From Amphiura filiformis (taxonomy: Eukaryota; Echinodermata; Ophiuroidea; Amphilepidida; Amphiuridae), in contig NC_092642.1 in NCBI RefSeq assembly GCF_039555335.1, positions 9,682,752 to 9,746,751 of the forward strand: a stretch of DNA of 64,000 bases, in the 5' to 3' direction. This document shows, one piece after another, positions 42,201 to 64,000 of the stretch. Position numbers and translations under genes: made by a program. Position 1 is the stretch's first letter; each line of letters opens with the position of its first letter. The notes beneath the pieces were generated by a model. It was not told where the DNA came from and ran no database searches. It saw only the letters and a program-made list of their open reading frames with translations.

Positions 42201-45200
42201 TAATTACAAAATCTGGCCTTGTTACACTCGAGAACTTATTTTTGTAACAAGTTTAATAATTTGTTTTGAGATGTAAAAACTGAACGATAAATCACTTTTT
42301 TAGTTCTTGCCATTTTTGCCGGCAAAAACTGTTTTTGCCAAGTGGTTAAAACCATGTTTTTTTCCGCCTGCGGCAAAAACCTGCGAACCCTGCCGCCACA
42401 ATGTCACCGCTACTCGCTTTACTGGGGCGATGGCTTTTCATTCTAACATCCGGGTATGTGGATTCGCTCCACTTACGTCATAACCCACTTTCCATGTAGA
42501 TTAGCCCGGTAGTGAGAACACAAAATCAATGTGGATTCAATGTGGATCGACACCACATTACTACCCAGGTACGAACCCACATTGTGTAATGTGAACACAG
42601 CCTAATAGTGGCCTGGATTGGACATTCATATTATATTGTTAGTGATCATTATCGTCCCAAATAGTTAATTCTCCAGATGAGTGGCTATTTAAGATATTTT
42701 ATGCACCTGACAGCAATATTAAACAGGTGCACAGGTGGGTAGTAAGGTACAGCTCTTGACTCAATTTTGTCTAGCCTTGTGAGAATCAAAATTTGATTGA
42801 TTGATATGGGCTTCACTGTTATATGTGTAGAATCTACAAAATATTTTCCTGCAAATTCTTGGACCTCAAGTGTGGTTAATTACCCCTAATCCTGTCCCAA
42901 GTTACCCACATACATTCCAATGAATGTATTTTAAGATTATGTTTGTTTTGTTTTTCACTATTTAGGTATCATCAGCGCCAGCCCCAGCACCTCAAGAGAT
43001 TGCCAAGCCTCCTGTACCTGCTGAACATCAAATATTATGTGATATATATGATGCATTGTTAAGACGATGTTCAGAAAAGGCTGCTAATAGTGCTGTAAGT
43101 ACACTGACTTAATGACATCAAACTCTTGACAAAGTGCTATGGTTTATTTGAACATGGCATCATCCGCCAATAATACTCTATTTTATACAGGCGGTTATTA
43201 AATGTTTCAGCGAGCTGGTGAAACCTTGTGCATATTGTCCTGGTAGGATGTATGATCAACTGACGGGCATGTCTTGATAATAAAATAATCTAGAGCAGCA
43301 CTATATTGATATTTAAAAGTAAAATGTTTATACCTATTACAATACATCCAAACATCCAAGGCAATTAATGAGGAGGTGGAACAGATAATAGGCCTTAGGA
43401 AAGTCCATAATCCAGGAAGAGCCTTTCCAATGGAGGATTTTTTTTACGACATCGCATAACTGGGCATTAACAGCAGAGACGAAAAAAAATCATTTAGAAG
43501 CTGCTGACAAAAGTGTGATATTTATGATTGATCATTACAAATGTTGTTATTCTCTATTTTTATTTCAGCAAACCAAAAGGAAATTGGACGATGTAAATAG
43601 GAAACTTAACATACTGTATGATAAATTAAGAGAAGGAATGGTAAGTAGTTGGTTATCATTGACAAAAAGGCCTCAAAAACAAAAAAGGTATATTGCTCTA
43701 TCCGAACAAAGAAATAAAAGACTCTGATGTGGTTTACTCCAAGAAAAAGTAACGTGGTAGTGCTTGATTGTGGCTAAGTTGTGGTTAAGGATACGAGACA
43801 TGATTTACCGACAAGTGACTCATTTCGGAATGCGATCATGAATTTTGAAGAAAAAAAAGTTTCCACGGGCTTCGTTGGGACTCGAACCAGCGATTCTAAA
43901 CTTCCTTGATTACGCGTCTAGCGCTTTACCGCTTCGCCACCGTGGCAGTTGAGCGATGGAGTGTAATGATAAAAGATAAATCTCATAATGCCGCTTTTTA
44001 GCCTTTTGTTTACTAAAAAAGATGCGTTTTGTAAAGATAGATTAGCCGCTTTTATGCATAAATAGCACGAACGCTTGGGGAAAGGTTTCAAACAAATAAT
44101 AAAGACACTGATGTGATGATGAAATTGCGTAAGTCGGGAATTATCTGCGTCGCAATGTTTTGTTTTGGTTTTAGGAATTTGACCTTATAATTTACGACTT
44201 CATGACATTATCATTCGAAATCAACAAAAGATATTTCAACACTATATGTCATTCTTTCTCTAGAATGTTTTGTACATGTATGTGAAATAGCTTCAACAAT
44301 GGTTCGCTGCATAATGGTAAAAATAGCCTTGACTCAAAAAAGGGCGAGAGGTACCATATTTACGGATTCAGGCTAAATTTAAAATTGATATAAAACGTTC
44401 GTTTTTTGATCGATTACAAAAATTAATTTTTGTCGTATAAAGAAATTGTATCTGGCGTGAATTACACTACAGTTTTTATTCCTAGGGCTCTTTGACTTCA
44501 AATAATTTTTTTAATGATAGAGTGAATCCCCTGGCCCTCTATAATTACGCACAAAAGATCGACCCCCTTAAGCGAATGAATTGATGTTTTTCTTGACTTG
44601 GCTGATTTATTGAACTTTTTTTGTCTACTGAAAGACAAGCCTCAAGGAAATTGAGCACATTAAGATTGGCAGTTGGATTATAAGTGGCCTTGAGCAGCTG
44701 GGTCTTCTCATGATGGTGTATTTGTTCAATGAGAAAATGAAATTAAATAAAAACTAATAAAATGTTGAGTTTGTGGCAATTCAAATCAAAGCAACATCAT
44801 TTATTTATTTATTCCTTTCAGGAAATTCCATGAATACAATGTACTGGTCTCCTTGGAAGACCTGATATATATGTGACACAGTGTGGTCCATGGGGACCAA
44901 AGGCGGCAAATTTGAAATTGAGATAAAGGCGAAATATGGAGTAAAAAACAATAAAATACATAACAAAATATACATCACAAAGCTTTAGAACCAAGTATGC
45001 TAGACCTTTGGTATTTTCAATATATGATAGCCTGTTGTTTGTATAAGGTAATAATTATAGCAACTCAATTTTCAAAAACCCTCCTTTGGCCCCCATGGAG
45101 CAGATCATGTCACATTTACATGATACATATTGCCTACTTCATCTAACATAATGTTTACTTCTTGCCACAGGTATCAGCCATGATTCTTCAAGGTCTTCAT

Positions 45201-45350: not shown

Positions 45351-45691
45351 TGCATGTATTCTTGATTTTTTATCAGTGTTTTTACTGATAACTGGTTCAT
45401 TTATACATTAAAATATTAAAAATAGTATATCCTTCATGTAAGCCTACGTCAAAATTAGCCTATTGTCAAGACTTAATTGAGGGATTGGGTGTCTTTATAC
45501 TGTAAGCTGTATAATCCCTGTCTTGATACTAGGCTAACTCTTGAGTATGCACACATGAAGGCAATACCACTTTATTTTATTATTGTTATTATTTTATGTG
45601 ACAAAATATTCCTACCTTAATTATTTAGTGTATATTGTGCCATTGCTGATACCGAAGAATTGAATGTTTTGTTTTGAAATTGAGTATGGGA

Positions 45692-45697
45692 AATAAA
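45692..45697 (+). promoter_or_regulatory. Polyadenylation signal AATAAA, SEC31A
   Basis: First strong AATAAA after the stop codon, 342 bp downstream, in AT-rich 3' UTR sequence, so it is the likeliest cleavage signal. A later AATAAA at about 45906 could be used as well. Confidence 0.6.
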
Positions 45698-45713
45698 GTT
45701 TGCAACAGATTTC

Positions 45714-48474
45714 ATTTTTCCATAGTACATTACATGATCCGTCTTTGTATCAATTATGAATAAATTTTGATCTGACCGACCAACCTACCTACCAACCAGG
45801 CAGAGTTGTGCATTCCTGAATCTGCTGCCTCGCCTAATTCGACATGGAGGTGCACAAAGCAGTAGCTAGGGGGATGTGACTCACCTCCTAAAAAATGTCA
45901 ATCTGAATAAAGAGCCCTTTTTTGAAGGAAAATTTTGCAAAAGTTTCACTTTGGAGTCCACCGCACCCCCAAAAAATCAATCCTGCCTACGGGCCTAGAG
46001 TTGTAGAAATGATAGTTGAGCGATGTGATTTTCTTATGACAGTGCTTCCTTCTACCCACACGCATACCAGTTAAATAAATTTGAACTGTTTGTGACAGAT
46101 TTTTAATTACTGGTGCAAGCAGGTGCAAGCAATTGGCATAGAGATTTGGCAATCTCACAAATATAATGTGATGTATTCTTTTTAAATGAACATTTGTTAA
46201 TAGTGCCCCATGAATTTAAGATTTTACATTGGCACAAAGTTTCAATATGGAGACCAATAGTCTAAGTTATATCAAGTAACTTCATTTATACATGTTGCAA
46301 CAAAGAATACTGATCAAGATTTTTGATAAATTTTTCAAATTTTAAAGTGAAGAAATTGATACATGGTGGGTGACATAAAAATTCAGTTTTTTTTTTACTT
46401 CAATATTGTTCTTTACTTCACTGAAATGTTTTACAAATGCAACACATTCTGATCCAATTGGACCAGAGTTGGCAATAATGAAATTAAGGAAAAAAAAATA
46501 ACCGGTAATAAGATAGTGGACATGTAAAAACTTCATAACTTTGCAACCAAGTATGCCATGGACTTAGGGAATCCAGCACCAATAAGCGTAGGTACTGAGC
46601 AAGTTAGCACTGGTAATGCAACAATTTTCAAAATTTTTCTTTTGAATTTGATCAGTTTGTGTTACATGTTGCAGAAAGTTTTCAGTTAAGTGAAATGAAA
46701 TGTGCTGTTTGAAGTTTAAAAACTGAATTCCTGTTTACTGTAAAGTTAGTGATATCAGTGCTGTTGTTTTAATTATTTTAATTTATGCAGGAAGAAGTGT
46801 GTTCTTCCTTGTGAAACAATCATGCCCCATGTTTAGGCTCAAATATTGTTTTTGTGTCATTGAATAACAATTTGCTATTTATTCTGCAATTTTATTTTTT
46901 AATTGGAGGTCTTCAAATGCAACACGGTTTCATGTTTTTGAGATGCATTTTTATGTTTCTAGAAAATCCAGATGCATTAATGTCCTAGAGGTCCGTAAAA
47001 CATATGCATATCAGTTTATGTTATAAGGACCTGTATTTATTGTGTAAATACTCAGAGCTAAGGTTTTATACTCAATTTGAGATGTATTTGCACATCACAC
47101 AATGATAAAATAACACCTTTTTGTTGAGGGGTGTAGTGGATTCACTGTGTATATAATACTAATGCACTTAGGGCATTGTACAACTGTAATTGGCACAAAA
47201 CTACAGTTCATGACATACACAGTGCAATCACACCCCACTTTAACAAAAACTTGGTAATGTCAATTTTTTTGTTTGTCAATATTTTCTGACTTGAAGATAC
47301 CAAAATAAATGAATGCATTATTTTCTAACTTTGTTGACAGTCTAATACTTGCATGTTTATGTACAATTGGGATGATAAATTACTTATATTGGGATTGTGA
47401 TTTTCAAGATATCTAACAAATTGAAATAAACTGGCATTTTTCAGAAATATACATTCCATTTTGGAATTAAATGCTGTTATGCTGTACCAAATATGAACTG
47501 CTTCATGTGCTTTTTCTGTTTTGTACAAAATACTGGAAATTATAAATTTGCATCAAAAGATTTTGTTTCAATATGGAGAAATTTATGTCATGACTCACTG
47601 TGGTGCTATGTTTGTAAAGATATGTTGGGGACTGTGCATGTTGTGACTCTTCAGATTTATCTACATGATGTAGGTGAAATGGAGGTTCAATATCTGTAAG
47701 TCGTAATAGGTGTGAGAAGACAAAATCAATGTGGGTACATGTATAAGAATATTTATCAGAATATTAAATGCTGTAAAATTCAACTAAATTGGTTATACAT
47801 TAAAACCAAGAAAACAGACAAGTCATGGTGCTGTAAGGAGACTTTACTATCCTGTGCATAATAATTGAAAATGCTGTTGGTAATACTTCATGTATTGTAA
47901 GACTAATCCCGAGTTAGCCCAGTATCAAGACATGGATTATAAAGCTTCCAGAATGTGTCGTTGTAGTGAATATGTCATACCTTAATTACTGGTTCACGTT
48001 TGGTTTGCACAACTTGTAGAACCCATTTTGACTTTCTGTTATGATCATTTTTGATTGTGGTTCTGATAGTGTGAAGTGAACCAGTTTCCCTTGCAACGAT
48101 TGATTTTGATGTCATACTACAACAGCAAATAAAGCTGTATATTCCTTCAATTGACAATAAGCTAATGTGGTGTACGTATACACTGCTGATTGATCAAACC
48201 AGAGACTAAAACAGCGTTCCTTCGGGAAAGTTCCAAAATTGAACAGTAATTGGTGCCCAAGGTTTGCATGTATACTCATTGTGTATTGCCACAAGGGCTT
48301 TTTATTTAGATTACAAACAAGCACACATCGTGCATGGTGAAACGATCTTGCAAGTACATTATTTGCTTTTCCAGGAGTGACGTAAAAATATGGCTGAGTT
48401 GGACCTCTGTCATATTTCATGCCTTGAAACCAGAATTTTGATATAATTTGTATATGTGTGTGTGTGGTTGTTTT
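45714..48474. other. SEC31A downstream region, no gene seen
   Basis: AT-rich DNA with an old repeat edge near 45850-45995 (CCGCACCCCCAAAAAATCAA, CCTGCCTACGGGCC). No ORF with family resemblance. Alternative long 3' UTR cannot be excluded. Confidence 0.4.
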
Positions 48475-48483
48475 GCATTCATC

Positions 48484-49057
48484 CCCGGGGATCACTCATG
48501 TATAAAAGTTGTAAGCATCCGTGTGAATTGACTTTCAAAAATGACCCTAAGCTAGGATGTTGAAAATTTGTCAAACTGACCCTAAACAAGGATTGAACTG
48601 AAATAAAAACACCCTAAGCAAGGAATTGTCTTGAAATTTACCCCTAAAACAATAGACATTATAAAAACACCCTAATCGAGGAATTGGTTAGAAATTTGCC
48701 CCAAACAAGGATAGACATTGCGTGTGTCGGTACAGTGATATCAGTAAGCTTAAAAATGGCACTGTTGAAGTCGGCTCCATTTTTAAAATCTGGTTGGTAA
48801 AATTGCTCAGAAACCACTCTTTTGTGCCGAATAATTAGATAAATATGTCACCACTAATGTCCGTTAATTGGGTAATTTTATAAAATAAAGCGAGGATCAT
48901 CCTTTAAAAAAACACCCCTTCTTTTACTAAAATGAGTGTTTTGAGACTCTAATCGCGGATCCGCTGGATCCTCGCTTTTGCTTTTCAAAACCACCCTAAA
49001 TCCGCGTTTTCTTTCACGCGGATGCTTACAACTTTCATATATGAGTGGCCCCCCCGG
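48484..49057 (+). mobile_element. Mutator-like MITE with 9-bp TSD, copy 1
   Basis: 9-bp TSD GCATTCATC at 48475-48483 and 49058-49066. Ends hold ATCACTCATGTATAAAAGTT and a near complement continuing into GTAAGCATCCG. Inside, one half has about six ACCCTAAGCAAGGA-type units and the other a GCGGATCCGC-rich patch. 574 bp, no ORF. Copy 2 is inverted at 58017-58607. Confidence 0.75.
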
Positions 49058-49106
49058 GCATTCATCATTGTATACAAGCTGGTAAAAGGTAATAATACAT
49101 ACATTT

Positions 49107-49339
49107 GTGACACGATGTGGTCCATGGTGGTGAAAGGTAGCAAATGAGGTAAAGGCATAAATATCGACAAAATTACGTAGGAAATGCACATCGCAAAACT
49201 TCAGAACCAATTATGCTTGACCATTAGTACTAGTTTTCAGTATATGATAATCTAATGTTTGTATACAGCAATAATTATAGTAACTCAATTTGCAAAAATG
49301 CCTACTTTGGCCGCTATAAAGCAGATCGTGTCACATTTT
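49107..49339. mobile_element. MITE with TGTGACACxxTGTGGTCCAT ends, copy 2
   Basis: TTGTGACACGATGTGGTCCA to AAGCAGATCGTGTCACATTT, a cleaner inverted pair than copy 1 (44872-45115). Confidence 0.7.
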
Positions 49340-51115
49340 TCAATTGCTAAGTGTTACGGGGGGCTTTACAGTGTACATATACTTCCTTCGATACATGCAG
49401 AGAAACATGTTTCAGACTGTGCTGAAAGGAATCCTTGAACTTACATGTTTCTCTTTTGAAAATATAAGTGGGATCACAGAAAAGCAGCTTCAGTAAAGTT
49501 TATGAAAATGAGATATTGATGTGTAACAAGGACATATGATGTCTTCATTGTATTGCTAATACATGAAGGTTGACTAGGCCTTGGTTATCAACATCATGTA
49601 TGCTTGTTTTGTCAAGCATTAATTAGCATAAAATACTCTTTTAACTTTCAATTCGCTGTAGAAGTGATGATGTAACAGGATTAACTTCCATAGCAATAGG
49701 TTACAACAATTTTTGAATATAACACACTGCACTTGTATGTTCATGCAGTACCACTGCATTGAACCATAGTTGTCAAAGAACAGGGATAAAGACCTGGATC
49801 GTAATTCTATAGAATATTCACTTCATGCTGATCACTCCCACCTGTAAGATTAGTATCTTTGAAAAGAGCGGTATTGTATTCAATCTATGATTGCAGACAT
49901 ACACAAGTGATGAGTGCAACCTGTTTATAGTGCAGTGCGCGATATATTCATAAACAGTTTTTAACCTATTGCTGTGGTAGTTAATCATTTACATCATCAC
50001 TTCTACGGCAAATAGTTGGTTAAATTTTCCAAGTAAATTGGATTATCAAATTCAAGATGGCTGACAACTGGTTTCATTTGCAGTGATATTGTAAAATCAC
50101 AAATCATATATGGTTAAATGCAACTATGCTGACAGCCTAATGCTAACTAGAATGTAAATCAATATTTTTTTCAAGCTTGTAAATCAAACTAATTTCAGGC
50201 TGTCTTGATTCATTGGTGTTAAAGTTGAAATTACTCACATCTTAATTAAATTGGATTGAAATGACTCACTATTTCAAATTCGAAATTTGCATCCCCCGCA
50301 CTATTAACATGAGAAGAAACTGATTATGATAAAGCATTTGATGGGCTTTGAAGGCTATGTTTTGATATAACAGTATGGTGTCATCTAACAGGGAAATAAT
50401 TGTAAGAAATTCCAGCTCTTCTACATTTAAAAAATATTGCAGTCAAACATTCTTATAATACTTGTATGATGTTATGTAAATAATATGTCATTGAATGTGT
50501 TACCTGATTGAAGAAATGGGAGTTGAACAGGTGATGTATGTTAGCATTGATAATATATGCACCCAAATATGTGAATAAAATTATAATATGAAAGACTTTA
50601 CAGTTTTGTCATTTGTGATGTTGGGAATGGTGGTGACTGGTGAGAAAATGAGGATTGGGAAAGGCGGAAATGTGTGTGCCACAGTATGATTTCATTTGCG
50701 CTGGTATTAAGAAAGGTGAAAGAACTTCCAATTATTATCTGTTCCAAATCTAGTGACACCTAATGCACATTGTCCTAGGTAGGATTAAGCCTATTTGTTT
50801 GTTTGATATATAGTCAAAATCCCAGGACCACATATTGTACACAAAAAAAACCCTCAATTTCCAACTGTAAAAAATTACACCAACACATAAAAGGGGTTCA
50901 TTTATTGGTGGGGGGAAATGAACACAGACATTGAAATAGTTCTTTGGAATTGAGCTGAATTGCAAAGAAAAGAAAGTGATGTGTACATCATAAACATTAT
51001 TTTTATAGTTCGTTGGTGAGAAAGTTGAAAATATGACCTTTGTGTAATCTTTGTGAGAAAGGGGCAGTGGTGTAGTCAACACTTCCAGACACTTTTTCAG
51101 AGGGTATGCATAGGA
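49340..51115. other. Intergenic, no gene seen
   Basis: AT-rich single-copy-looking DNA. AATAAA near 50574 is followed by more AT-rich sequence. Nothing recognised. Confidence 0.4.
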
Positions 51116-51530
51116 GGGGGGCACAGTGGCGTAGCCAGGATTTTTATATTGGGGGGGGGCAAGTTTTTGACACAAACCGACAAGTAATATTGACAATTCG
51201 AGCGTAGCGAGCAACGAGTGGGGTCCAGGGGCCCGCCTTAGGGCCCCTGGTGTGGTCCAGGGGCAAAGCCCCTGGTAGGGGGCGAAGCCCCCGGAAGCTC
51301 TGAGGTTTTAGCGTTGTGGAGGGCCATTTTTCATGCATGTTTTTACCTTTATAAGCTTTTATATAGTATTTTTGTTCCTTTAAAATTGGGTAAAAATCAC
51401 TAGAGAAGGTAAGGAAATAATGTTTTAACATGTTTTTAAGAGAAAGGTTGCTATTTAATATAGTGTTTAAAAGTTTGAAATAATTTACGTAGGTTACACA
51501 GTGCGCCGGTGTGCCTAAATACCATACAAA

Positions 51531-52471
51531 TGTAACGGTAGAGATTTTTAGGGTGATTTTCTTTTTGTTCAACTTTGGATCCAGGGACTTATTCGGGCGA
51601 TATCAAATGTCCAATACCATTACACAAAATAAATAGACACGATGGAAGACTTGTAGATATACGCTGTTGTTATGCTCCGGCTTTAATATATGATGATAGA
51701 ACCAATGAAGATGGATGCAATATTATAAATATATTTAATTAATATGACCACGATTTAATTGATGTTGAGCAGTTGGAGGCTCAGATGGAAGTGAAGTGAA
51801 AATAATCTAAGACAAGTTCATATGGGAAAACACTTGAAAACCAACTTAAGTACCATCTCTACAACAGCATAAATAATATCCCTAACAAAGCATTTACTTA
51901 ATGACTACTCTTAACAATACACAACCCGATAAAGAGATAAAACTTTCTCATGAATAATTCATAAGTACATCACCTACCATCTTAAGCCAAAAGATAAGTG
52001 GCAATAATTTACACCACACTTAAGTTTTTAGGATAACAATACACACTCATATAAAAGGAATCAATTGCTAAAGTGCTCTTAAAACTTCTATGAATGGAAG
52101 ACAATAAACAATGAAGACATAAATATTTGAAGTACTCTTAAACTTGAAAATCAAAGGATACCTACATTTTCATGATCAAAAGAGGTGACTGACCTTTTCA
52201 AATTAAAGATAAACCATGATCTATTAAAAACAATTTCAAAGACAATAATGATTACGATGGAAAATAAGTTTACTTGATGATGATCATGATCGATTAATTA
52301 CACAACAGATAGAAATATAATTTTATATGAAACCAAAACCTATATTAATTAAGAATGACACAATCAAAACAAACAAAATAATAAACATGGTAAAGAATCA
52401 TATTATCAAAAGTCCTAACATTTCAAACCCTACACTTATTATTAAGACCAACCATTCTGATGCCGGTTACA
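51531..52471 (-). repeat. 3' LTR (element orientation minus)
   Basis: 941 bp, plus-strand start TGTAACGGTAGAGATTTTTA, end GATGCCGGTTACA. Compared with the other LTR it lacks one G near 51821 and one A near 52336; I saw no substitutions. Confidence 0.92.
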
Positions 52472-52484
52472 TTCACCCCTGCTG
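52472..52484 (-). other. Polypurine tract next to 3' LTR
   Basis: On the minus strand GCAGGGGTGAA directly precedes the LTR, the expected place for plus-strand priming. Short and imperfect. Confidence 0.5.
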
Positions 52485-54419
52485 CAAAGAAAATGACGTC
52501 CGCGGCATTTTACATGAAATTTGGAAGATGATAATTTGAATGTTACAAATGTCAAGAAAAACATACTAATCAAATACATGTACATACTTAAGTGATGTAA
52601 CTATCTCTTTACAATATAAAGTGCATTTATGACCTGTTAATTTGGTTTGAAATCCAAAAGGTACACTTTGCTGTAAATACCAAACAATACAAAAGAATCA
52701 ATAACCACACAAAATGTCCACTTTCATAACTTTCATGATAAAACAATTAACACTTTGGAAGAAAAAAAACTTCGCAATGTTTTCAAAGCAATGCCTCATT
52801 TTAAATTAAGCATGATAAACAAGACTAATTTGGAAGAAGATAAAGGCCTACATCAATGTAGAATACATTTTGAGATATTCTACTTTTAATTTAGTCATGT
52901 GAAAATGACACAGATCAAAAATAAACAAGTGAATAACTTAGCATGAATACCATGGAAAACAAGCAAATTATAAGATGACAAGATAATTAATGAACTTAAT
53001 GAACTTAAGATGGAGGATACATAATTAACTATTCATTAATATTCCTGACAATGATACCAAGAACAAAATAGAACACATGATTGATGGTTTCTACAATAAC
53101 TCTTTCATGTAGATGACAAACCAATAGAAATCAATATCATGATGATGAATGAGACATGATATCATAAAATAATAAAAACATTTGTGAGTAGCTTTTTGGA
53201 AAAATGTGATGACATGTTGCGCAAATTAAGATCATCTTTTTCTGTGATCTTCATGCCAAAAACATAATTAATAAAATATAGGTTTAATTTATAAAACCTA
53301 CACTACTCAAACAAAATAGTGAACCAAATAGGTTCTTAAATATAACCTCATAAAACTTCTAAAAACAATCTCAGCAAACCATAATCTTTATGATATGATT
53401 ATTGAACAAAATAATAGAACACAATGTTAAAGCTCATAACTTAGCTCATATCAAAATAATGGCATGTTTAAAGAAAAATAAATTATGAGATAAACTTGTT
53501 GGCAAATTACTTAAGATGGTATCATGATGGAAATGAAAAATGCTTTGTTTTTTTTAATAACTGATGCCAAACAAATATTCAGATGATTTGGTGATAATTT
53601 TGGATTGACAATTGCATGCAAATTGGATCACTTTTGGTAACGATCAAAAATATGCCAAAATACAAAATACCACAACAATAGGTTTAGTTTGAAAACCTGT
53701 TCAAATCAATAATAAAACATCAGTTTGCATAATGAACAGGAGACTATCAAAAACTCTGTTTTTAAGAGAAATTGGATGTGAGCAGTTATGATGCTCAACC
53801 TAACTTCTTTGGCCTACATAAAACATGGAGTGAAATAAAATAGTGAAATAAACAATGGCTTCAAACTCAAAGCAATAACATGATTAATAAGATGCCATGA
53901 CATACTCAAGATTTTTTTGAGCAAAATAATAGAATCGCAAAAGAGGACCGCAACTCTTAATTTGAAAGAGGAACTAAGTTTGAATAAGTGCACGTCTTCA
54001 AACTTATTCTTTGCAAAACTATAAACATGATTAACACCTCTAGAATTTAAGTTGTATACAAAAGAAGACAACAAACTTAATCATGATCATAAAATAAAGC
54101 ATTTGGAACCATTATTTGACAAACATAATATGAAGTTACTCAGGGATGACAGCTACATTCAACTCTGCTGCGAGGAAATGGCGTCCTCGACATTTATATG
54201 ACACTTTAAAAAATGATAAAAATAATGTTTGAACTTTGATGTAGATTTTAGCAATATACACTTCATATGATATTTTGATAGAGTCATTACAGTCTTTGAA
54301 AGATATTGTTCAGATTACAAAAATATGTAGATCGCACAATAATTTGAAATTTAAATGAATTGTATGATAATGTCTCAAGCAAATAATTTCATTTGAAGTG
54401 TTTTTCAAAAGTCAGTTTA
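52485..54419 (-). other. AT-rich non-coding interior of the LTR element
   Basis: No ORF of note. A degenerate second copy of the LTR/interior border lies at about 54140-54235: CTACATTCAACTCTGCTGCG ... AAATGGCGTCCTCG against TTACATTCACCCCTGCTGCA ... AAATGACGTCCGCG at 52467-52506. This suggests the interior grew by duplication of its own 3' end. Confidence 0.6.
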
Positions 54420-55739
54420 CTATTGTTGCTCTGCTGCTCGCTGATAATATACCTTCCATCTTCGATAACAGTTGTATAATGTAGTGGTGATGAGTTCCTG
54501 TTCCTTACTAATGTAAAATAGGTGACATAATTTATCAAGCAAATGTCCATATTGTTCTAGGTTGTTACCTTGAAAGTTCAACAGTATTTTACTTGCATGT
54601 GTACTAGTTGCATTTGCAATTTCTGAGTCTGAATATGATGTAAGGACGGCAGAATCATCAGAATATAAGTTGCGATATGAGGGGTGAGAGTTGATGGCTA
54701 CATATCCACAGGAAATAAAAGCATGGTACTTCCTAAGTACTGTCACAAATTGTGGTATAATATCACGAAGATGTCCATGGTGGTCGATGTCCAGAAGGTG
54801 TTGGCATAAACATAATAATACTTCCAAGATATCTTGGGATGGAACACGACGTGAAATATCTTCCAGTTGGCATAGTATCAAGAAATCAAATTTTCTGTCC
54901 AGTAACTGGTCGCAACAATTATCAGTCTGTAAATTACTCAATTTCTCCCAAGCTTCAGACATAGCAATTTTATCATGTTCACTAACCAGGTGGTTATCAA
55001 GAGTAGCTGCAGCTGGTGTGTAATTCAGTTCAGAGTTACTATCAGATTCAGATTCAGATGGTTCAGATGATGGGTCTTCACAAGGTAATTCTTCAGAAAT
55101 AATGTCAACCAAAGGAACAATATCATCAGCTGGTGGCAAGTTATCAGGTACAGAGTTTTCAGACATAACATCACTAGTATCACATGGGAAGTCATCGGAA
55201 TTGTATGCAAACTTATCATCATCACTATCAACATGATCAGGTTCAGAGTCAGTTTCACTGTCCAATATATCCAGAGGAGAGTTGTCACTACAAAGGCTCT
55301 CATGATTTGTCTGCGTATAAGAAGTCACAGGTTGATGCTGTACATTATCTGGTCTGTCCATGGCATAGCTACTACCACGAACACATATACCTCCAGGGCC
55401 GGTGACGTGAATGGCTTCAGGAGTTCTTCCAGGAATGAGCACAACGTCGAATACAACCGCCTCACCGTCGCCTACACTGGATTGAACTTTTGCAGGGTTG
55501 TTCCGGGTGATACCTCGCCAGTGCACAAACACATCTTCTCTGGTGTCATCGCGGGTGATGAAACCATAACCATTCTTAACGTTGAACCACTTTACATGTC
55601 CGGATACTTGATGTGCAAGATATGTTGGTCCTGTAGGCCTATACGATGGAGTTGAACACTGTCTAATGTGATGGAGATGACGAAGATGATTCACTTCAGC
55701 TTCCAAGGCTTCAAGCCGCGAAATTATACCGGATATCAT
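54420..55739 (-). CDS. Y-box-type cold-shock domain protein encoded by the LTR element
   Basis: The first ATG in frame (55739) gives about 439 residues; the frame is open 24 codons further up but only from a GTG. Numbered from the ATG: a short coiled-coil-like start ([17 protein letters not shown], 5-22); a complete cold-shock domain at about 44-117 with RNP1 KNGYGFI and RNP2 VFVH and the Y-box signatures [16 protein letters not shown] and VTGPGG; an acidic Asp/Ser/Glu-rich stretch at about 147-238; and a helical C-terminus with no family I recognise. Cold-shock domains bind single-stranded RNA or DNA. It occupies the gag position, with no intron in the domain, which suggests capture from a processed Y-box mRNA. 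Whether it packages element RNA is inference. Confidence 0.85.
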
Positions 55740-55818
55740 GATGTAGTCCAAGGGTCGTGGGTGCCCTGATCCAATTTGTTGAAGATAGTTATCGCCAAGC
55801 TTTAGCCCCACGTTGAAG

Positions 55819-55845
55819 ACGCCAATGTAACAGTAGAGGAAAAAT
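55819..55845 (-). other. Second, decayed LTR-end plus PBS copy in the leader
   Basis: Minus strand reads CTCTACTGTTACATTGGCGT and then CTTCAACGTGGGGC, i.e. the LTR 3' end followed by a PBS whose second half (CAACGTGGGGC) fits tRNA-Lys better than the first copy does. It lies about 57 bp inside the true PBS. Confidence 0.65.
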
Positions 55846-55862
55846 CCCGCTACGCAGAAATA

Positions 55863-55875
55863 ACGTTGGGCGCCA
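55863..55875 (-). other. Primer-binding site, tRNA-Lys type
   Basis: Minus strand TGGCGCCCAACGT one base after the LTR end CCGTTACA. It is complementary to the 3' end of tRNA-Lys as used by several retroviruses and LTR elements; 13 of 18 positions match before it diverges. Confidence 0.8.
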
Positions 55876-55876
55876 A

Positions 55877-56819
55877 TGTAACGGTAGAGATTTTTAGGGT
55901 GATTTTCTTTTTGTTCAACTTTGGATCCAGGGACTTATTCGGGCGATATCAAATGTCCAATACCATTACACAAAATAAATAGACACGATGGAAGACTTGT
56001 AGATATACGCTGTTGTTATGCTCCGGCTTTAATATATGATGATAGAACCAATGAAGATGGATGCAATATTATAAATATATTTAATTAATATGACCACGAT
56101 TTAATTGATGTTGAGCAGTTGGAGGCTCAGATGGAAGTGAAGTGAAAATAATCTAAGACAAGTTCATATGGGGAAAACACTTGAAAACCAACTTAAGTAC
56201 CATCTCTACAACAGCATAAATAATATCCCTAACAAAGCATTTACTTAATGACTACTCTTAACAATACACAACCCGATAAAGAGATAAAACTTTCTCATGA
56301 ATAATTCATAAGTACATCACCTACCATCTTAAGCCAAAAGATAAGTGGCAATAATTTACACCACACTTAAGTTTTTAGGATAACAATACACACTCATATA
56401 AAAGGAATCAATTGCTAAAGTGCTCTTAAAACTTCTATGAATGGAAGACAATAAACAATGAAGACATAAATATTTGAAGTACTCTTAAACTTGAAAATCA
56501 AAGGATACCTACATTTTCATGATCAAAAGAGGTGACTGACCTTTTCAAATTAAAGATAAACCATGATCTATTAAAAACAATTTCAAAGACAATAATGATT
56601 ACGATGGAAAATAAGTTTACTTGATGATGATCATGATCGATTAATTACACAACAGATAGAAATATAATTTTATATGAAACCAAAAACCTATATTAATTAA
56701 GAATGACACAATCAAAACAAACAAAATAATAAACATGGTAAAGAATCATATTATCAAAAGTCCTAACATTTCAAACCCTACACTTATTATTAAGACCAAC
56801 CATTCTGATGCCGGTTACA
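55877..56819 (-). repeat. 5' LTR (element orientation minus)
   Basis: 943 bp, the partner of 51531-52471. Promoter elements inside cannot be assigned with confidence. Confidence 0.92.
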
Positions 56820-57016
56820 CAAATAAGTAATGTTGAATCATATTTAGTCAGACCCATGACCGACGATACAGATGCATGATTTGCCGACCGTACCTCCGGG
56901 CCGGCACTTAGTAGACCACACAAGAAAATGAACCGACGGTCCCGTCTGAACCGACGGAATGGCATATTGGGGGGGCAATTTCCCTTGCCCCCCCTCTACT
57001 ACGCCACTGGGGGGCA

Positions 57017-58016
57017 ACTTTTAAGGGGAAAACGTTAACGAAAATGGCCAAAAACAGGGCTAAAAGTACACAAAAGGGCTAAAAATCTTGCATAACAGGG
57101 CGGTCAGCATCCCACAGTGGAGCAAGACTTCTCACAGGGGACAGCTCCCCCCCGTAGCTATGCCAGCGCCACTAGAAAGCCAGGGTCTTTTGGGTGTGAG
57201 GAAAAAAATATTTTCTTGGGATATATGTGTTTTGCTGGCTCAAAAGTTTCATAATTAGTTCCTCTCAAAGTCAAACTAGAGGATTAACTGAGAAATGTTT
57301 TATGGCTTTTATCCTAGAAATGATCATTGGGTTACTGCGGGGGTTAACTCCGGGGGGGGGGGCACTTCAATTTGAAATGGATGTAGGTGTAGGGCTGGCA
57401 CTTTTGCACTAAGGGGTATTCGGTGAGAGCAAAATGTAAAAAATATGGGGTCATTGGGTGAGAGCATGATTTTTGACATTCGGTGAGAGCAAAATGTAAA
57501 AAATATGGGGTCATTGGTGTGAAAACATGACCTTTTTTTAAAATGGAATCTTTAGGTGAGAGCCGAAACAGCGCAACAGAAACCTCGAAAATCGAATTTC
57601 TAGTTCTAAATGGCTTAAAATTTCTTTGTTTTATCAAAATAAGTGACAAAATCAGTGATAAATGAAATTTGCTGTTAAAATTGAACAAGTAAGGGTCTTT
57701 GGGTGACAGATCAAATGAAAAAATAAGGGGTCTTTGGGTGACAGACAGAACATGTGTTCGTAAAAAATATGGGGTCTTTGGGTGACAGCGATGCTGAAAA
57801 AGGGGTCTTTATAAAGCCCTACATACGCGTCACCTCCAAAGGTGGAGGGCGCTCCCCCCGGGTTTACTGCATAACAGTTTCCACTTCTTTTGCGTTTTCA
57901 CATCAAAAAGATCTATCCCCAGGATCTATCAATGGAAAGAAAGACCACTTTTTGAGTAATAAACAGAGAACTAGGCCTACTTCCAATTTGGCATCCCCAC
58001 AAATGAGTTGGAAGCC
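57017..58016. repeat. Intergenic with short tandem repeats
   Basis: A 60-bp unit, ATTCGGTGAGAGCAAAATGT plus AAAAAATATGGGGTCATTGG, occurs twice (57418-57520). GGGGTCTTTGGGTGACAG occurs about three times at 57690-57790. The right part (57820-57870) reads CCTCCAAAGGTGGAGGGCGC. No gene. Confidence 0.6.
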
Positions 58017-58607
58017 CGGGGGGATCACTCATATATGAAAGTTGTAAGCATCCGCGTGAAAGAAAACGCGGATTTAGGGTTGTTTTGAAAAGCAAAACGA
58101 GGATCCGCGCGGATCCGCGATTAGGGTCTCAAAACACTCAGTTTACTAAAAGAAGGGGTGTTTATTTAAGAATGATCCTCGTTCAGGGTAGTTTTTCTAA
58201 AATTACCCAATTAACGGACATTAGTGGTGACAAAGTTTATCAAGTTATTCAGCACAAAAGAGTGGTTTCTGAACAGTTTTACCAACCAGATTTAAAAAAA
58301 ATCGGAGCCGACTTCAACAGCGCCAATTTTAAGCTTACCCTTATCATCACTGTCACTGAATGGCACTCTACCGACACACGCAATGAATAAGGGCAAATTT
58401 CAAACCAATTCCTCACTTACGGTGTTTTTATATTGTCTGTCCTTGTTTAGGGGTAAATTTCAAACAAATTCCTCGCTTAGGGTATTTTTATTTGAGTAAA
58501 ATCCTTGTTTAGGGTTAGTTTGACAAATTTTCGACATCCTAGCTTAGGGTCATTTTGGAAAGTCAATTCACGCGGATGCTTACAACTTTTATACATGAGT
58601 GGCCCCC
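58017..58607 (-). mobile_element. Mutator-like MITE, copy 2 (inverted)
   Basis: GGGGGATCACTCATATATGA to TACATGAGTGGCCCCC; carries the GCGGATCCGC patch first and the CCTTGTTTAGGGT-type units last, so it is opposite to the copy at 48484-49057. No TSD visible. Confidence 0.75.
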
Positions 58608-59744
58608 TGTAGAGTGGTCAGGTCTTTCTTTTTGATTTGAAAACACAAAAGAAGTGAAACTGTTCGAGTCTGAACAAGCTTGCACTCAATTGCCCGAAAC
58701 TGTTCTTTTTTCCTTGGTGTTTTTGTTTGTTTGTGTGTTTGTTTGTTGGGGGGGGGCGTGTGTTCTATAGCTCCAATGCCTCCCCCCCCAAATGCTGGAG
58801 ACAAGCTGTTTGTAACTGTTATACCCCGGGCTGTGTGTAGTCAAACACAAAGTGTGCAGAATTTTGAAACGCAGGGGCAACGTTGCATTGATAAAAGGTG
58901 AGTTGAAATTGTTAATTTATACGCTCAAAAATTATTTCAAAGCATTGTCGGTTATATGCCACGGCAAACTGTTCATTTTAGAATAGGTCAGTACTCACTG
59001 CATGACAGTCATAGCATCAAAATGATCAAGGCACCATTTGACCATACTGAATACTCCGATATTTTTAAGCTTCCTTCACAATGCTCAGACTCAGTCTCAG
59101 TCATGTTCTTTCTTCACTGATAGTCACAGGCTCAGCATGTTCAGTTCAAGTCAATAGCCCTATAGAACTCTCAGGATAAACAGTTTTTACTTTTACTTAG
59201 GCCTAGCCTAGGCACTTTACATTGAAATTGAAAAATTGTAGAGCATGCTAAAAAAAATCATGCTTGAACGATCTACGTAAAAGTTGGAAAGCATTTCAAT
59301 GCTTGATTGACATGATTGAACCACAAATGTTTGTCAGGTCGCTAAAAAAAACAAGTTGAGAACACACAATCGACAGTCATTTCTAAAGATGCATTTATTA
59401 TTAATACTCAATCGCTATTGCAGAAAACTGAATCGCACGCCGGCGCCGGATCAGTGTACAAAATCGCTGTTGTATGTGCATGCACATGATTCACTGTTTT
59501 GAAAATGCAACAGGTATCATTCATCATTTCGTGGTAAAGATTGACAGTGCTGACAGCTTCAGCCAGTCTATGATTGCCTGGTCAAGCACCATCATCACAT
59601 ACCCGAAGGCGAACGTAAGGACAGTCGGTCAACGTTCACTAACAAGCATTAATACACATACATGTATATCTAGCACAGTTGTATACCGTACTAAAAGAAT
59701 TCAGTCTAGCATGAGTATCCCATAATGAATATAAACTCAGCTTT
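58608..59744. other. Intergenic, no gene seen
   Basis: GTTTGTTTGT-type low complexity at 58720-58750 and a G run; CTCAGACTCAGTCTCAGTC near 59088. Nothing else recognised. Confidence 0.4.
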
Positions 59745-60335
59745 ACTTGCTTACTTGCTAGTCAGACTCCGCTGATGGCTCTCCAGTCTCCACATGACTC
59801 TGTGTATGCAGTTCCTAATGTCTTGTCTCACTATCCCACTTCCAGTTTCCTCGATTAGTTGCTTAAAATTAAATTGTAATCTTTCCGTGGTTGTCCTCTT
59901 GATCTTTTACCATGCGTAGGCTGCCACAGCAAAACTCTGGAAGCTGCCTCTGTTTCACTTCTGGCACAGTGTCCAGCAAATCTCAGCCTTTTAGTTTTCA
60001 GCCTTTCGGAAATTGGGGAGAGATTGCCGTACAGCTCCTTATTGGTGGTGTGCGACTGCCAGTAATAGTGCCTTTCTCAGTAGTCTTGTGTAACAACCAT
60101 CAAGCGCCTTCCTAAACTTTGATGTAATTGTCCAGGTTTGTGCACCATACATCAGAACTGATTCGACTGTGGTGGTGAATAGCTTGGTTTTAAGATTTCT
60201 ACATGTAGGCAGGCTGCTCTTCCATATCTTGTTCATGCTGTTGCAGCTAGGCCCTCCATGCATGGGCTTTCCTGATGTTGAAATTCTTTTCACTGCTGCC
60301 AATCCAAGCCCCAAGGTATTTGAAATCATGAACTA
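59745..60335 (-). pseudogene. Non-LTR retrotransposon RT C-terminal relic
   Basis: The minus strand reads NSMNKIWKSSLPTCRNLKTK, LFTTTVESVLMYGAQTWTIT and LDGCYTRLLRKAL, then in other frames ELYGNLSPISERLKTKRLRF and AGHC, GQPRKDY and DIRNCIHRVMW. This is the 3' end of a LINE-type RT related to the relic at 4004-4850 but not identical. Frameshifts make it inactive; 5'-truncated, as usual for LINE copies. Confidence 0.8.
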
Positions 60336-60649
60336 CTTCAAGCTCAGCTTTACACAATGACTAATTTACATGTAAATTTTGGCTCTGGTATTGGAAATGT
60401 GCCAAATAGTATTTGGATTTTATGTACTTTAGGATTTTGCCATTCTAGATTATATTTGAAAGATATAGTCATAGAAAACATTGATGCAGTAGTGTGGGCA
60501 CCAAAATCCCTGAATTGTCGTGTGCAGTCATATGTCATATATTGGTATGAAAAAAGTTACACTTTGCAAATTGAGAGAAAAGTCACCAATTCTGATTCAA
60601 ATAAGCATATTAATATTATATGAATTATACATGGGGGGTGGTGGGGGGG
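60336..60649. other. Intergenic, no gene seen
   Basis: AT-rich, ending in a G-rich run (60630-60652). Nothing recognised. Confidence 0.4.
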
Positions 60650-60800
60650 GTTGCAAGGTGACTTTCAGGAATGGCAAAATTTGACACACATTGTCAAAAA
60701 ATGTCAACTATGCCATTCAGGGACAGCTCCCCTGGGGTTGCAAGGTGACTTTCAGGAATGGCAAAATTTGACACACATTGTCATAAAATGTCAACTATGT
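60650..60800 (+). repeat. 86-bp tandem duplication
   Basis: GGTTGCAAGGTGACTTTCAG to AAATGTCAACTATG occurs at about 60649-60712 and again at about 60735-60798, nearly identical. Confidence 0.85.
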
Positions 60801-60911
60801 CTACCCTGGTTATATGTACAACCAGGAGCAGCTGTAGTCAGCCTGACTACTCAAGTCTGCATAATGTTATGTCAATTAAACTTAACATTGTACAGAGAGA
60901 GAGTTTGGCAG

Positions 60912-61242
60912 TTAAGGGGGTACTACACCCCTGGCCAATGTTGTGCCTATTTTTGCATTTTTCTCAAAAATTATAGCGCATTGGTGACAAGTGAGCAACT
61001 ACTGCACTGAAAATTCAGCAATTCAGGGCAAGTAGTTATTGATTTATTGATCAAATACTGGTTTTCCCTCATTTTTGACTGTAACTCCACAACTGTTGTC
61101 TGTGCTGAAATAAAATTTCCAGTGCAGTAGTTGTAGTCATTGCCCCTATAATATACATATCTTACTTGTCACCAATGTGCTATAATTTTTGAGAAAAATG
61201 CAAAAATAGGCACAAAATTGGGCAGGGTGTAGTACCCCTTAA
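60912..61242. mobile_element. Palindromic MITE with TTAA ends, copy 2
   Basis: TTAAGGGGGTACTACACCCC to GGGTGTAGTACCCCTTAA, 331 bp, with TTAA on both sides. The interior matches 5623-5983 apart from short deletions. Confidence 0.75.
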
Positions 61243-61397
61243 CAGCCACCATTGGAAACAAAATCTACACTGCTTATAAATGAAAAGTGTGATGTAAAGA
61301 ACATGCCTATAGCACATATAAATATCTATGAGTGACAATGAGTGAAAGCTATAACACACCTGGAAATTTCAAAAACAATGAATGATTAATATTCAAG

Positions 61398-61835
61398 CAG
61401 GGTTCGGTTTTTGCCTGGTTTAAACCGGCAAAAATGGCAAAAACTCATATTTAGTCACTAAAATATTAAAAAGTAACACAGAAAGCTCATAAACAGTAAC
61501 ATAAAACTTTTAATGAATCATTCAATAATTTTTTGTCTCATCAAGTCCTTAAAATGAAAAGGTTTTTGAATTTGATTTTTGCCACATTTCGGTTAAATGC
61601 ACTTGAACAATGAAAACGCATGCCTTTAATTTCTTACTATGTTACTTGTAATTACAAAATCTGGCCTTGTTACACTTAGGAAATAATTTATGTAACTTAA
61701 TAATTTGTTTTGAGATGAAAAAACTGAATTATAAATCACTTTTTTAGTTTTTGCCATTTTTGCCGGCAAAAACTGTTTTTGCCAAGCGGTTTAACCGCGG
61801 TTTTTTCCACCTGCAGCAAAAACCTGCGAACCCTG
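61398..61835. mobile_element. hAT-like MITE of GGCAAAAAC words, copy 2
   Basis: CAGGGTTCGGTTTTTGCC to CTGCGAACCCTG; internal AGCTCATAAACAGTAACA and AATGCACTTG blocks match 41901-42392. No matching 8-bp flanks seen. It ends 45 bp before the LARP7 exon. Confidence 0.75.
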
Positions 61836-61880
61836 TTAATTACATGTATTTATTTTAATTCTTTGAAATTGAATTTCTAG

Positions 61881-62056
61881 AAATGCCAATATGGATACCA
61901 ATGAGTCTAACATAGGTGATAATGACAAGAAGAAAAGGAAACGCAACAAACAGCTTCTCAAAGATATTCGCCAACAAGTGGAGTTTTACTTTGGTGATGC
62001 CAATCTCAGAAAAGATCGCTTCTTGAAGCAAGAAATAAGCCAGTCTGAGGATCGAT
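61881..62056 (+). CDS. LARP7: LARP7 exon with start codon (coding from 61891)
   Basis: Acceptor GAATTTCTAG ends at 61880; ATG at 61891; donor GTAAGT at 62057, one base into a codon. An ATG at 61883 in another frame opens an 11-codon ORF overlapping the real start, a possible translational brake. Confidence 0.87.
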
Positions 62057-63468
62057 GTAAGTGATGATGTATCATGTTAAAATCTTTGAATTTGGTAATT
62101 GTTGACTTTCTGTTAAGGGATCTGGAATGAAGCGTTTTGAGCGTTTCAACAGTATTTTTGTGGGACATGAGAGCACATCAGACATATCAAATTGCATTCT
62201 GAATACGAAGAATGTCTTTCTGATATCAAATAATTTTCATTTTTGAAATTCACGATATAATACAAGTTTTATGACAAATTATTAAAATTTGATATTTTTC
62301 ACATTTTTGATATATTACAGTCCTCAAAGTAAATTTTATAAATCTAATGACATATTCTTAAAGTGTATGTACCTGGGAGAAAAGCCGACAATTAATTGAA
62401 AATTTTGACCTTTCATATTTAAGATATGGATTTTTTCCCCAAAAAGACCTAATTTTTTATGGTGTTTATGGAAAAAAAATCCATACCTTCAATACGAAAG
62501 GTCAAAATTTTCAATTGATCGTCGGATTTTCATCCCACCTACATACACTTTAAGAATATATCATCAGATTTATAAAGTTTACTTTGAGTACTGTTAGATA
62601 TCAAAATATCAATTTTAATCATTTGCCATAAAATGTGTATTACATTGCAATTTCAAAAATCAAAATTATTTGATATCAGAAGGACATTCTTCAGATTCAG
62701 AATGCAATTCGATATGTCTGATGTGCTCTAATGTTCCACAATAAATACTGTCCAAACGTTCATACCCCAGCCCTTAATGTGATGCAAATCTCAGAAAAGA
62801 CCTTTACTTGAAGCAAGAAATAAGCCAGTTTGAGATTTGATGTTTTAAATCGAGGGGTCAGTGACACAAAGACGTAACGTAAGATTTTGATATCAAAATT
62901 TTCAGAAACATGAGCACTTGCCAATAAACACATAGTAACTCCATTTAGCACCCCATTGAAATCAATGAGGACCATTTTCTTTAAATTAAACTCATTTTTC
63001 TCAGAATGGCAAAAATGGAGTTACGTCTTTGTGTCACTGACCCCTCGAAATGTGAATTTGGTAATTAATTGTTGACTAAAGTGATGTGTATAAGTGAAAG
63101 ATTATAACTTCAACCACATGCATTATACATTATTTCTGAAATTTCTTGTGAGTTTCCTTGTTTCCATCTGTTCAGTTTCAAAGTTTGAATTTCCTTCTAA
63201 AGTTGTCATTTTAATTCCTGATAGAAAGCATTCAAACGTAACTTTGGACAAGCGTAACTTTGGACAGTGGAAAGTGAAATAGATTATTTATTATGTTGTT
63301 TATAAAGAACATTTGAAAACAAACATAAAATTTTACATGAACTGGAACTCAATATTGTATTTTTTAGATGTTGATGTATCAATAATTGCCAGTTTCAATC
63401 GTATGAATGTCTTGTGTCCAGATCCTGGTCTCATCCCACAAGCTTTAAGTACATCTGATTTATTAGAG
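61891..63468 (+). CDS. LARP7: LARP7, La-related protein 7 (first two coding exons; continues off the window)
   Basis: LARP7 binds the 3' U-rich end of 7SK snRNA and keeps the 7SK snRNP, which sequesters P-TEFb, stable. Two exons join in phase: [20 protein letters not shown] ... [20 protein letters not shown] and [13 protein letters not shown] ... ALSTSDLLE. They form the first part of the La motif, and [12 protein letters not shown] and YVDVS..ASFN are closer to LARP7 than to genuine La. The rest of the La module, RRM1 and the C-terminal xRRM lie beyond the right edge. A splice acceptor upstream of the ATG implies a non-coding first exon. Confidence 0.87.
62112..62777. mobile_element. 666-bp foldback element with TTAA ends in LARP7 intron
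   Basis: TTAA at 62112-62115 and 62774-62777; ends TTAAGGGATCTGG and CCAGCCCTTAA. Arms of about 300 bp, e.g. AGAGCACATCAGACATATC near 62171 against its complement near 62714. The centre holds GGTCAAAATTTTCAATTGA and its inverse. No ORF. Confidence 0.8.
62778..62846 (+). pseudogene. Stray copy of the LARP7 La-motif exon end
   Basis: GATGCAAATCTCAGAAAAGA and TTGAAGCAAGAAATAAGCCA match the last ~65 bases of the first coding exon. Changes include a stop (GAGATTTGA) and loss of the donor. After the inserted 62851-63047 MITE the similarity resumes (GAATTTGGTAAT ... TTGTTGAC near 63053-63077 against 62087-62107), so exon end plus intron start were duplicated together. Confidence 0.85.
62851..63047. 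mobile_element. 197-bp MITE with perfect 28-bp inverted ends
   Basis: CGAGGGGTCAGTGACACAAA plus GACGTAAC, exactly inverted at 63020-63047; AAAT on both sides as a 4-bp TSD. It interrupts the duplicated exon/intron fragment, so it is younger than that duplication. Confidence 0.85.
63368..63468 (+). CDS. LARP7: LARP7 second coding exon
   Basis: Acceptor TTTTTTAG; AT completes Tyr and the frame runs [20 protein letters not shown] to LLE; donor GTAAGA at 63469. Confidence 0.87.
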
Positions 63469-64000
63469 GTAAGAGAACTATATGTCCTTTTAAATTATAA
63501 AAAGAAGTAGCAGAACCAAAAAGCTATGTTTTAATTCTTATGAAGGTACTGCTGAGAGTAAGTTTGTTTTTGTAAAGGTATTTGTTTTTATCTTCTTAAA
63601 ATTCACATAAGTAATGTGAAAAAGTAATCAATCGTTACAGTCGGTTCCGATCAGGGTAACGCCAAATTGTCGGCTGCACTTGCCTGTCCTATAAAAATAC
63701 CCTGACCAGCTATCTACGGCGACCCCCTTCGTTCACCAGGTCACTTGTGCCTGGCTGAAGTTTCGTCAGCGTTATCTCCTAGATTTCAACTGTTAATGCT
63801 TAGATATGCTCGACATTAAAAAAAAAGGAAAAAAATTAATGGATCTAAAAATTTATATTGCACCTTAATTAAACATGGCTTTAGTTCTTGAGCAGTGTTT
63901 GAAATAAACCAACATTTGCAATAGCCATTAAAGTTCAGATTGATGTTGAAGTCAGCATTGAGTCTGTCTTCCTGACTTTGGTAACAAAATGTCACACAAA
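63469..64000. other. LARP7 intron, cut by window edge
   Basis: A CpG-richer patch at 63640-63780 (GGTTCCGATCAGGGTAACGC, later TACCCTGACCAGC) may be a MITE fragment. No further LARP7 exon recognised. Confidence 0.4.

Follow-up and report, generated by a model that had tools for sequence, protein, structure and literature searches.

An LTR retroelement of the brittle star Amphiura filiformis with a cold-shock-domain protein as the only gene found

Non-autonomous LTR elements usually carry no gene, or a gag remnant. In plants, terminal-repeat retrotransposons with a GAG domain, known as TR-GAG elements, comprise two LTRs and a single ORF at the gag position, with no pol; one of them, AT5TE33540, is a Gag-only, non-autonomous element that transposes and thus provides a precedent (PMC8704663). 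Animal TRIM/Helenus-type elements also depend on a partner, make 4-bp target duplications and in some cases have a tRNA-Lys-type primer-binding site (PBS), and autonomous Gypsy elements match the PBS of such animal non-autonomous elements; the TRIMs used in that study are all shorter than 1000 bp (PMC10886601). Host-type domains have been found in retroelements such as Bs1 (PMC7264820), DNMT-bearing retrotransposons (PMC5890265) and the bdelloid ORF3 elements (PMC5408684). Finally, MMTV Gag is reported to co-localise with the host-encoded Y-box protein YB-1 and viral RNA, and particle output to fall upon YB-1 knock-down (earlier work cited in PMC4486188).

The window, i.e. the whole stretch of 64,000 nucleotides of A. 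filiformis DNA that was analysed (NC_092642.1, positions 9,682,752 to 9,746,751), contains at 51531-56819 an LTR element of 5289 bp on the minus strand (Table 1). The original prediction had left the strand unstated. The two LTRs (941/943 bp) differ by no substitution and two single-base indels (99.8% identity), begin with TGTAACGG and end with CCGGTTACA on the plus strand and have TG..CA termini, and the element is flanked on either side by a 4-bp target-site duplication, CAAA. This is a young, recently inserted element, as had been proposed. The PBS, TGGCGCCCAACGT, matches bases 1-13 of what we take to be a 20-base tRNA-Lys(CUU)-type PBS, and none of the remaining seven. At the other end, the polypurine tract is assigned tentatively because the purine-rich stretch is short. 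While the 4-bp duplication and the tRNA-Lys-type PBS are reminiscent of the TRIM/Helenus type, the element differs from TRIMs in its length of 5.3 kb and its ORF of 439 aa. Elsewhere in the window, neither a further LTR copy, apart from weak A+T-rich matches, nor another copy of the ORF was found.

Table 1. Features of the LTR element and its flanks, in window coordinates
Feature	Position	Strand	Remarks
Target-site duplication, left	51527..51530	.	CAAA
3' LTR	51531..52471	-	941 bp; direct repeat of the other LTR
Polypurine-tract-like stretch (tentative)	52472..52485	-	GCAGCAGGGGTGAA in element sense; adjoins 3' LTR; position and composition
3' internal non-coding region	52486..54419	-	~1.9 kb, 28% G+C
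Inner copy, purine-tract/LTR-start junction	54145..54219	-	~77% to 52459-52534; BLASTN E = 1e-6
Sole ORF	54420..55739	-	439 aa + stop; ATG 55739, stop 54420-54422
C-terminal all-helical domain	54423..54962	-	residues 260-439; also in 7 database proteins
Acidic linker	54966..55361	-	residues 127-258; 35 D/E vs 3 K/R
Cold-shock domain, Y-box class	55398..55604	-	residues 46-114; Pfam PF00313 E = 5.8e-18
N-terminal helix, coiled-coil-like	55656..55736	-	residues 2-28; low-confidence model helix
Leader	55740..55876	-	137 nt, without upstream ATG
Inner copy, LTR end + PBS	55804..55838	-	CTCTACTGTTACA then TTGGCGTCTTCAACGTGGGGCT
Primer-binding site	55863..55875	-	13-nt match, one base away from 5' LTR
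5' LTR	55877..56819	-	943 bp; direct repeat of the other LTR
Target-site duplication, right	56820..56823	.	CAAA

The ORF is intact (463 aa if counted from an upstream GTG, as the ORF lister chose to do). The longest stop-free run of the element spans 504 codons, whereas the longest runs in 500 single-base shuffles of the ORF's 1317 bases, which are shorter than the element whose run they gauge, averaged 87 and did not exceed 168. When all six frames were scanned with stops read as X, no pol, protease, integrase, gag or zinc-knuckle family was found in the element; the cold-shock domain (CSD) is its only protein family, and the six-frame scan gave one line, Mug135_C, below its cut-off. Outside the element, the scan covered two of the six frames of 36501-51500 and four of the six of 56820-64000, so that a pol relic may still lie elsewhere in the window. 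No Rfam family was found in the element, no CCHC pattern in the ORF, and no Gag family match for either the whole ORF or its C-terminal domain alone. The original claims of a Y-box-class domain in the gag position and of a lack of pol are supported, and because pol is not found, mobilisation would need a partner. Here, the element parts company with TR-GAG: its ORF encodes a cold-shock-domain protein instead of a Gag, its host is an animal, and it has no known autonomous sister. It likewise differs from the bdelloid elements, whose extra ORF accompanies gag and pol (PMC5408684), and from the DNMT-bearing retrotransposons, in which the DNMT lies inside the coding region (PMC5890265), since the ORF is the only gene found.

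The protein itself combines a full CSD, also predicted originally, with parts foreign to Y-box proteins. Its CSD scores 65 bits in Pfam (cut-off 27), finds its best PDB matches in the YB-1/YBX2 domains and retains intact GYGFI and VFVH motifs, presumably RNP1 and RNP2. Y-box proteins (YBX1-3) have a basic/acidic tail. The window protein shares with them a single CSD, mostly at 55-67% identity among the named Y-box matches listed, yet differs in having an N-terminal coil, an acidic linker and a helical C-terminal domain. A pattern similar to RLxxLExExxxLR occurs at the N-terminus of 10 of the 16 database proteins listed. The protein is net acidic, unlike a (basic) nucleocapsid. For the C-terminal domain, an AlphaFold model built from six input sequences (mean pLDDT 79) gave no confident fold match, capsid or other, so a capsid-like role is neither favoured nor disfavoured.

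The reading we tentatively favour, at somewhat less than an even chance, is that of a non-autonomous young LTR retroelement that is moved by the enzymes of another and encodes a member of an old CSD family, a protein that most likely binds element RNA. The RNA would be transcribed from the LTR, primed by a tRNA of the Lys type, and copied and integrated by enzymes that an autonomous LTR element, probably Ty3/Gypsy-like, supplies in trans. The sole product of the element, the CSD protein, would most likely bind the RNA of its own element in vivo and self-associate via its helical parts, and may thereby act as an RNA chaperone or as a packaging/granule factor carrying this RNA into the particles of the partner. 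In line with this reading, the repeated LTR-end/PBS and purine-tract/LTR-start junctions inside the element point to past recombination or template switching with a related element. MMTV offers a precedent for a retrovirus that uses a Y-box protein in assembly (PMC4486188); the difference is that the Y-box protein of MMTV comes from the host, whereas the window element encodes its own. More doubtful is the broader proposal of an animal LTR retroelement lineage in which a coil, a CSD and a helical domain replace Gag entirely and bind and assemble RNA without a zinc knuckle, while a partner gives reverse transcriptase and integrase.

Is the ORF simply a captured host gene? The original prediction had suggested a captured host domain; its Y-box class holds up, but a fresh capture looks unlikely. 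In a CSD tree, the family forms one group separate from 33 other CSD proteins including Y-box proteins (support 100/98), which argues that the family is old, even if this tree of 92 columns is unrooted, with an arbitrary root, and the family could be nested within Y-box proteins. Judging from this tree, the ORF seems unlikely to have been copied recently from a Y-box gene of the host. The full architecture of CSD, linker and helical C-terminal domain recurs in the A. filiformis protein P0001 (79% identity to the ORF over 95% of its length), in P0002-P0006 (34-41% identity, 84-94% coverage) and in P0143 (37%, 89%). As a whole, the family is characterised by a CSD and an acidic linker. An N-terminal coil is frequent and present in four of these seven relatives (P0001, P0002, P0005 and P0006), and the helical C-terminal domain occurs in eight sequences including the window ORF.

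Compared with P0001, identity reaches 83/86 in the CSD and 164/179 in the C-terminal domain, but 85/111 in the linker (29 gap columns); for both domains together versus the linker, Fisher's p = 1.4e-5. Between these two Amphiura proteins, each of the domains has thus been kept while the linker drifts. Across the six distant relatives, the CSD (63-72% identity) is the sole part to stand out in all six. The C-terminal domain is barely better kept than the linker in P0003 (41/38%), P0004 (37/35%), P0005 (37/33%) and P0006 (36/31%), with a clearer gap in P0002 (49 vs 24%) and P0143 (43 vs 27%).

An unlikely rival is a passenger: a CSD-family gene of the host, caught as spliced mRNA between LTRs and hitch-hiking without a role in transposition. 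Host-gene capture by LTR elements is known from Bs1 and others (PMC7264820), and at least three annotated family members among the matches listed are from A. filiformis itself (P0001, P0008 and P0192) and divergent, as expected of a host gene family. Since the constraint seen against P0001 fits a host gene too, it does not separate this reading from one of function in the element. What speaks against a passenger is that the ORF begins where gag normally would, and that near-copies among the database proteins (P0005/P0006/P0010 at 83-88%, P0151/P0152 at 88.5%) resemble, at the protein level, dispersed multicopy families.

Rather improbable, in our view, is an internally deleted autonomous element that has lost pol and kept the CSD protein as its gag, which would make the CSD family a true Gag lineage. 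The ORF does lie in the place of gag behind the PBS leader, the models of its protein show a helix at the N-terminus and a helical domain made of two parts, and inner repeats of the element ends indicate rearrangement. Local scores were 40 for the inner purine-tract/LTR-start junction, where none of 2000 shuffles scored above 19, and 20 for the inner LTR end and PBS, where none of 2000 scored above 15, the region having been picked in both cases after the repeat was seen. Against a deletion, the six frames, including the 1.9-kb non-coding part, hold no remnant of pol, and the six-frame scan of that 3' internal region gave no protein family. Moreover, the relatives stop near the end of the ORF: P0001 starts at the identical residue and ends one residue later, others end ~10 residues later, and P0002, P0005 and P0006 have both starts and ends within ~15 residues of those of the ORF. 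A search for long proteins (~785-2497 aa) containing part of the ORF gave 0 of 7755 candidates at E <= 10, but it was insensitive, because cold-shock proteins of any kind were absent from its output, and it would miss a pol in a separate ORF.

Slightly different in kind, and hardly probable, is a reading in which the CSD protein works on silencing or translation—RNA granules, escape from small RNAs or translational masking—and not on packaging. According to PMC4486188, YB-1 is a translational regulator linked to both P bodies and stress granules, and the long acidic low-complexity linker would suit condensates. A chance bracketing of a host gene by fortuitous repeats, or an assembly error, is very improbable: there is one copy only within the window, yet the exact TG..CA ends, the PBS one base off the LTR, the 4-bp duplication, the 99.8% identical LTRs and the agreement of ORF and element strand all argue against it.

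No description of an LTR element like this one came up among the papers listed by the literature searches, nor did the CSD-protein family, known from Amphiura and many other sources, come up there by name. In viral contigs, the full-alignment query retrieved cold-shock domains only (573 stretches; among the best 80 of 421 relatives, none extended past query residue 178), and neither the C-terminal domain (13 stretches) nor the CSD tail motif (43 stretches) found a match; the C-terminal domain also found none in genome contigs (14 stretches).

If borne out, an element with a host-type RNA-binding protein as its only gene would reveal what a parasite of parasites has to contribute by itself to the retroelement cycle, and would offer a natural example of a cold-shock domain being turned to Gag function, connecting the element with the reported recruitment of host YB-1 for MMTV assembly. 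It suggests that elements of this kind may depend on others for copying yet bring their own RNA-handling protein. The CSD-protein family could be surveyed across echinoderm genomes. In genome contigs, the CSD tail query matched 25 residues of a Bryobacteraceae locus (one of 42 stretches), which is presumably an ordinary cold-shock protein of bacteria and was left out of account.

The LTRs of the minus-strand element, 941 and 943 bp long, differ by two one-base indels; the lack of any substitution across 941 sites marks the insertion as recent. Its termini read TG..CA and are flanked by a 4-bp duplication, CAAA. One base inside the 5′ LTR sits TGGCGCCCAACGT, a 13-base match to the start of a primer-binding site (PBS) of tRNA-Lys(CUU) type, and the 3′ LTR is adjoined by the short purine-rich GCAGCAGGGGTGAA. 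A leader of 137 nt, devoid of ATG, precedes the ORF. LTRs, termini, duplication and primer site thus bear out the young LTR retroelement of the original prediction, as does the six-frame search its claim of one ORF with a cold-shock domain (CSD) and no pol: no further protein family scored above cut-off in the element, nor did any Rfam family at E <= 0.1. The element is flanked by an inverted pair of a dispersed repeat.

Features of the window (window positions)
Feature	Position	Strand	Detail
Direct repeats	1-1639		several, overlapping, 200-480 bp, 87-90% identical
Tandem array	26461-27033		unit of ~121 bp
Open frame overlapping the array	26469-26936	minus	
Q/P/S/Y-rich ORF	38388-38951	plus	GAWNDPP close to its end
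Dispersed repeat, inverted pair	48487-49069 / 58002-58607		85% over 617 columns
Complete LTR element	51531-56819	minus	5289 bp
ORF of the element	55739 to 54420	minus	439 aa
Exon with La domain start	61966-62052	plus	Pfam La E = 6.3e-13

The CSD of the ORF (Pfam E = 5.8e-18; best PDB matches YB-1 and YBX2) belongs, by sequence, to the Y-box class. A short coiled-coil-type helix, predicted in a low-confidence model, precedes it; behind it come an acidic linker (35 D/E, 3 K/R) and a C-terminal domain. Modelled alone from an input of only six sequences, the latter is predicted to be all-helical (mean pLDDT 79, pTM 0.48), and a fold search with this model gave no match that stands out. A model of the bacterial retron Se72 effector, a cold-shock-type protein linked with a different kind of retroelement, weakly matches all seven members of the ORF-family alignment over the CSD (the window ORF reaches 21 bits, where the cut-off is 82).

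A first protein search returned 198 proteins (best 120 of 198 listed) and an alignment search 1994 (best 120 of 1994 listed); 29 proteins (13 + 16) among the matches listed were examined by sequence. CSD, linker and C-terminal domain are common to the window ORF and seven of these 29, namely the database proteins P0001 (Amphiura filiformis; 79% identity, 95% coverage), P0002–P0006 and P0143. The match to P0001 suggests a brittle star, or a close relative of one, as host. The N-terminal coil recurs in P0001, P0002, P0005 and P0006 and is absent from the available sequences of P0003, P0004 and P0143; other relatives, e.g. P0007, P0008, P0010, P0151, P0152, P0154 and P0155, combine coil and CSD with different or shorter tails. 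P0008 and P0192 are two more, strongly divergent CSD-family members from A. filiformis whose tails differ. A CSD motif (GR, then T/S/Q, one or two residues, EA) occurs in 16 of 199 retrieved proteins, which together with P0004, P0143, P0151 and P0191, added by hand, and the window ORF made up the family set of a CSD tree. In this tree (92 columns, arbitrary root, family rows first picked by motif), the 21 family rows group together, with 0.59 changes per column along the branch that sets them apart (100/98 support) from 33 other CSD proteins, which were drawn from the matches listed, thinned to under 80% likeness and include no identified host Y-box protein. The ORF family therefore does not appear to be newly copied from a Y-box gene of the host. 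Of the captured host domain proposed earlier, the Y-box-class CSD stands, but a recent origin from such a gene seems unlikely.

Sequence comparison shows an intact CSD gene that appears to be under constraint. Residues identical to P0001 number 83 of 86 in the CSD, 164 of 179 in the C-terminal domain and 85 of 111 in the linker, the last with 29 gap columns (CSD and C-terminal domain versus linker, p = 1.4e-5). Against six more distant relatives, identity is 63-72%, 36-49% and 24-38%, respectively, the C-terminal domain being clearly above the linker only for P0002 and P0143 and 2-5 points above it for P0003–P0006. Near-copies among the relatives (P0005/P0006, 83%; P0005/P0010 and P0006/P0010, 88%; P0151/P0152, 88.5%) would fit multicopy families.

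Both ends of the element have inner repeats. In shuffle tests on regions selected after the repeats had been noticed (2000 shuffles each), the junction of LTR end and PBS, present twice at a spacing of 51 bases, scored 20 against a maximum of 15, and that of purine tract and LTR start, present twice ~1.7 kb apart and also found by BLASTN (E = 1e-6), scored 40 against 19. No whole inner LTR was found in the element. On the simplest reading, template switching brought in the outer ends from a related element, or the ends of one element lie buried in another.

The element has an integration-type structure, and no enzymes were found in it. Because it is without pol, it would, from established knowledge, depend on another element for both integrase and reverse transcriptase, supplied in trans. 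A Ty3/Gypsy partner would be compatible with its primer type and its 4-bp duplication, judging by animal elements (PMC10886601). By analogy, the ORF protein may bind element RNA, with packaging, translation control and silencing escape as candidate roles not told apart here. A Gag-only element is able to transpose (PMC8704663), and MMTV particle output is reported to fall on YB-1 knock-down (PMC4486188). Retroelements capturing host genes (PMC5408684, PMC7264820, PMC5890265) and Gag-only elements (PMC8704663) are likewise already known. No published description of an LTR element with a cold-shock protein as its sole gene was found among the papers listed in the literature search.

Elsewhere in the window, direct repeats and a tandem array were noted. 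The Q/P/S/Y-rich ORF resembles a SEC31 exon, and the translation of the La-domain exon resembles a LARP7/La protein.
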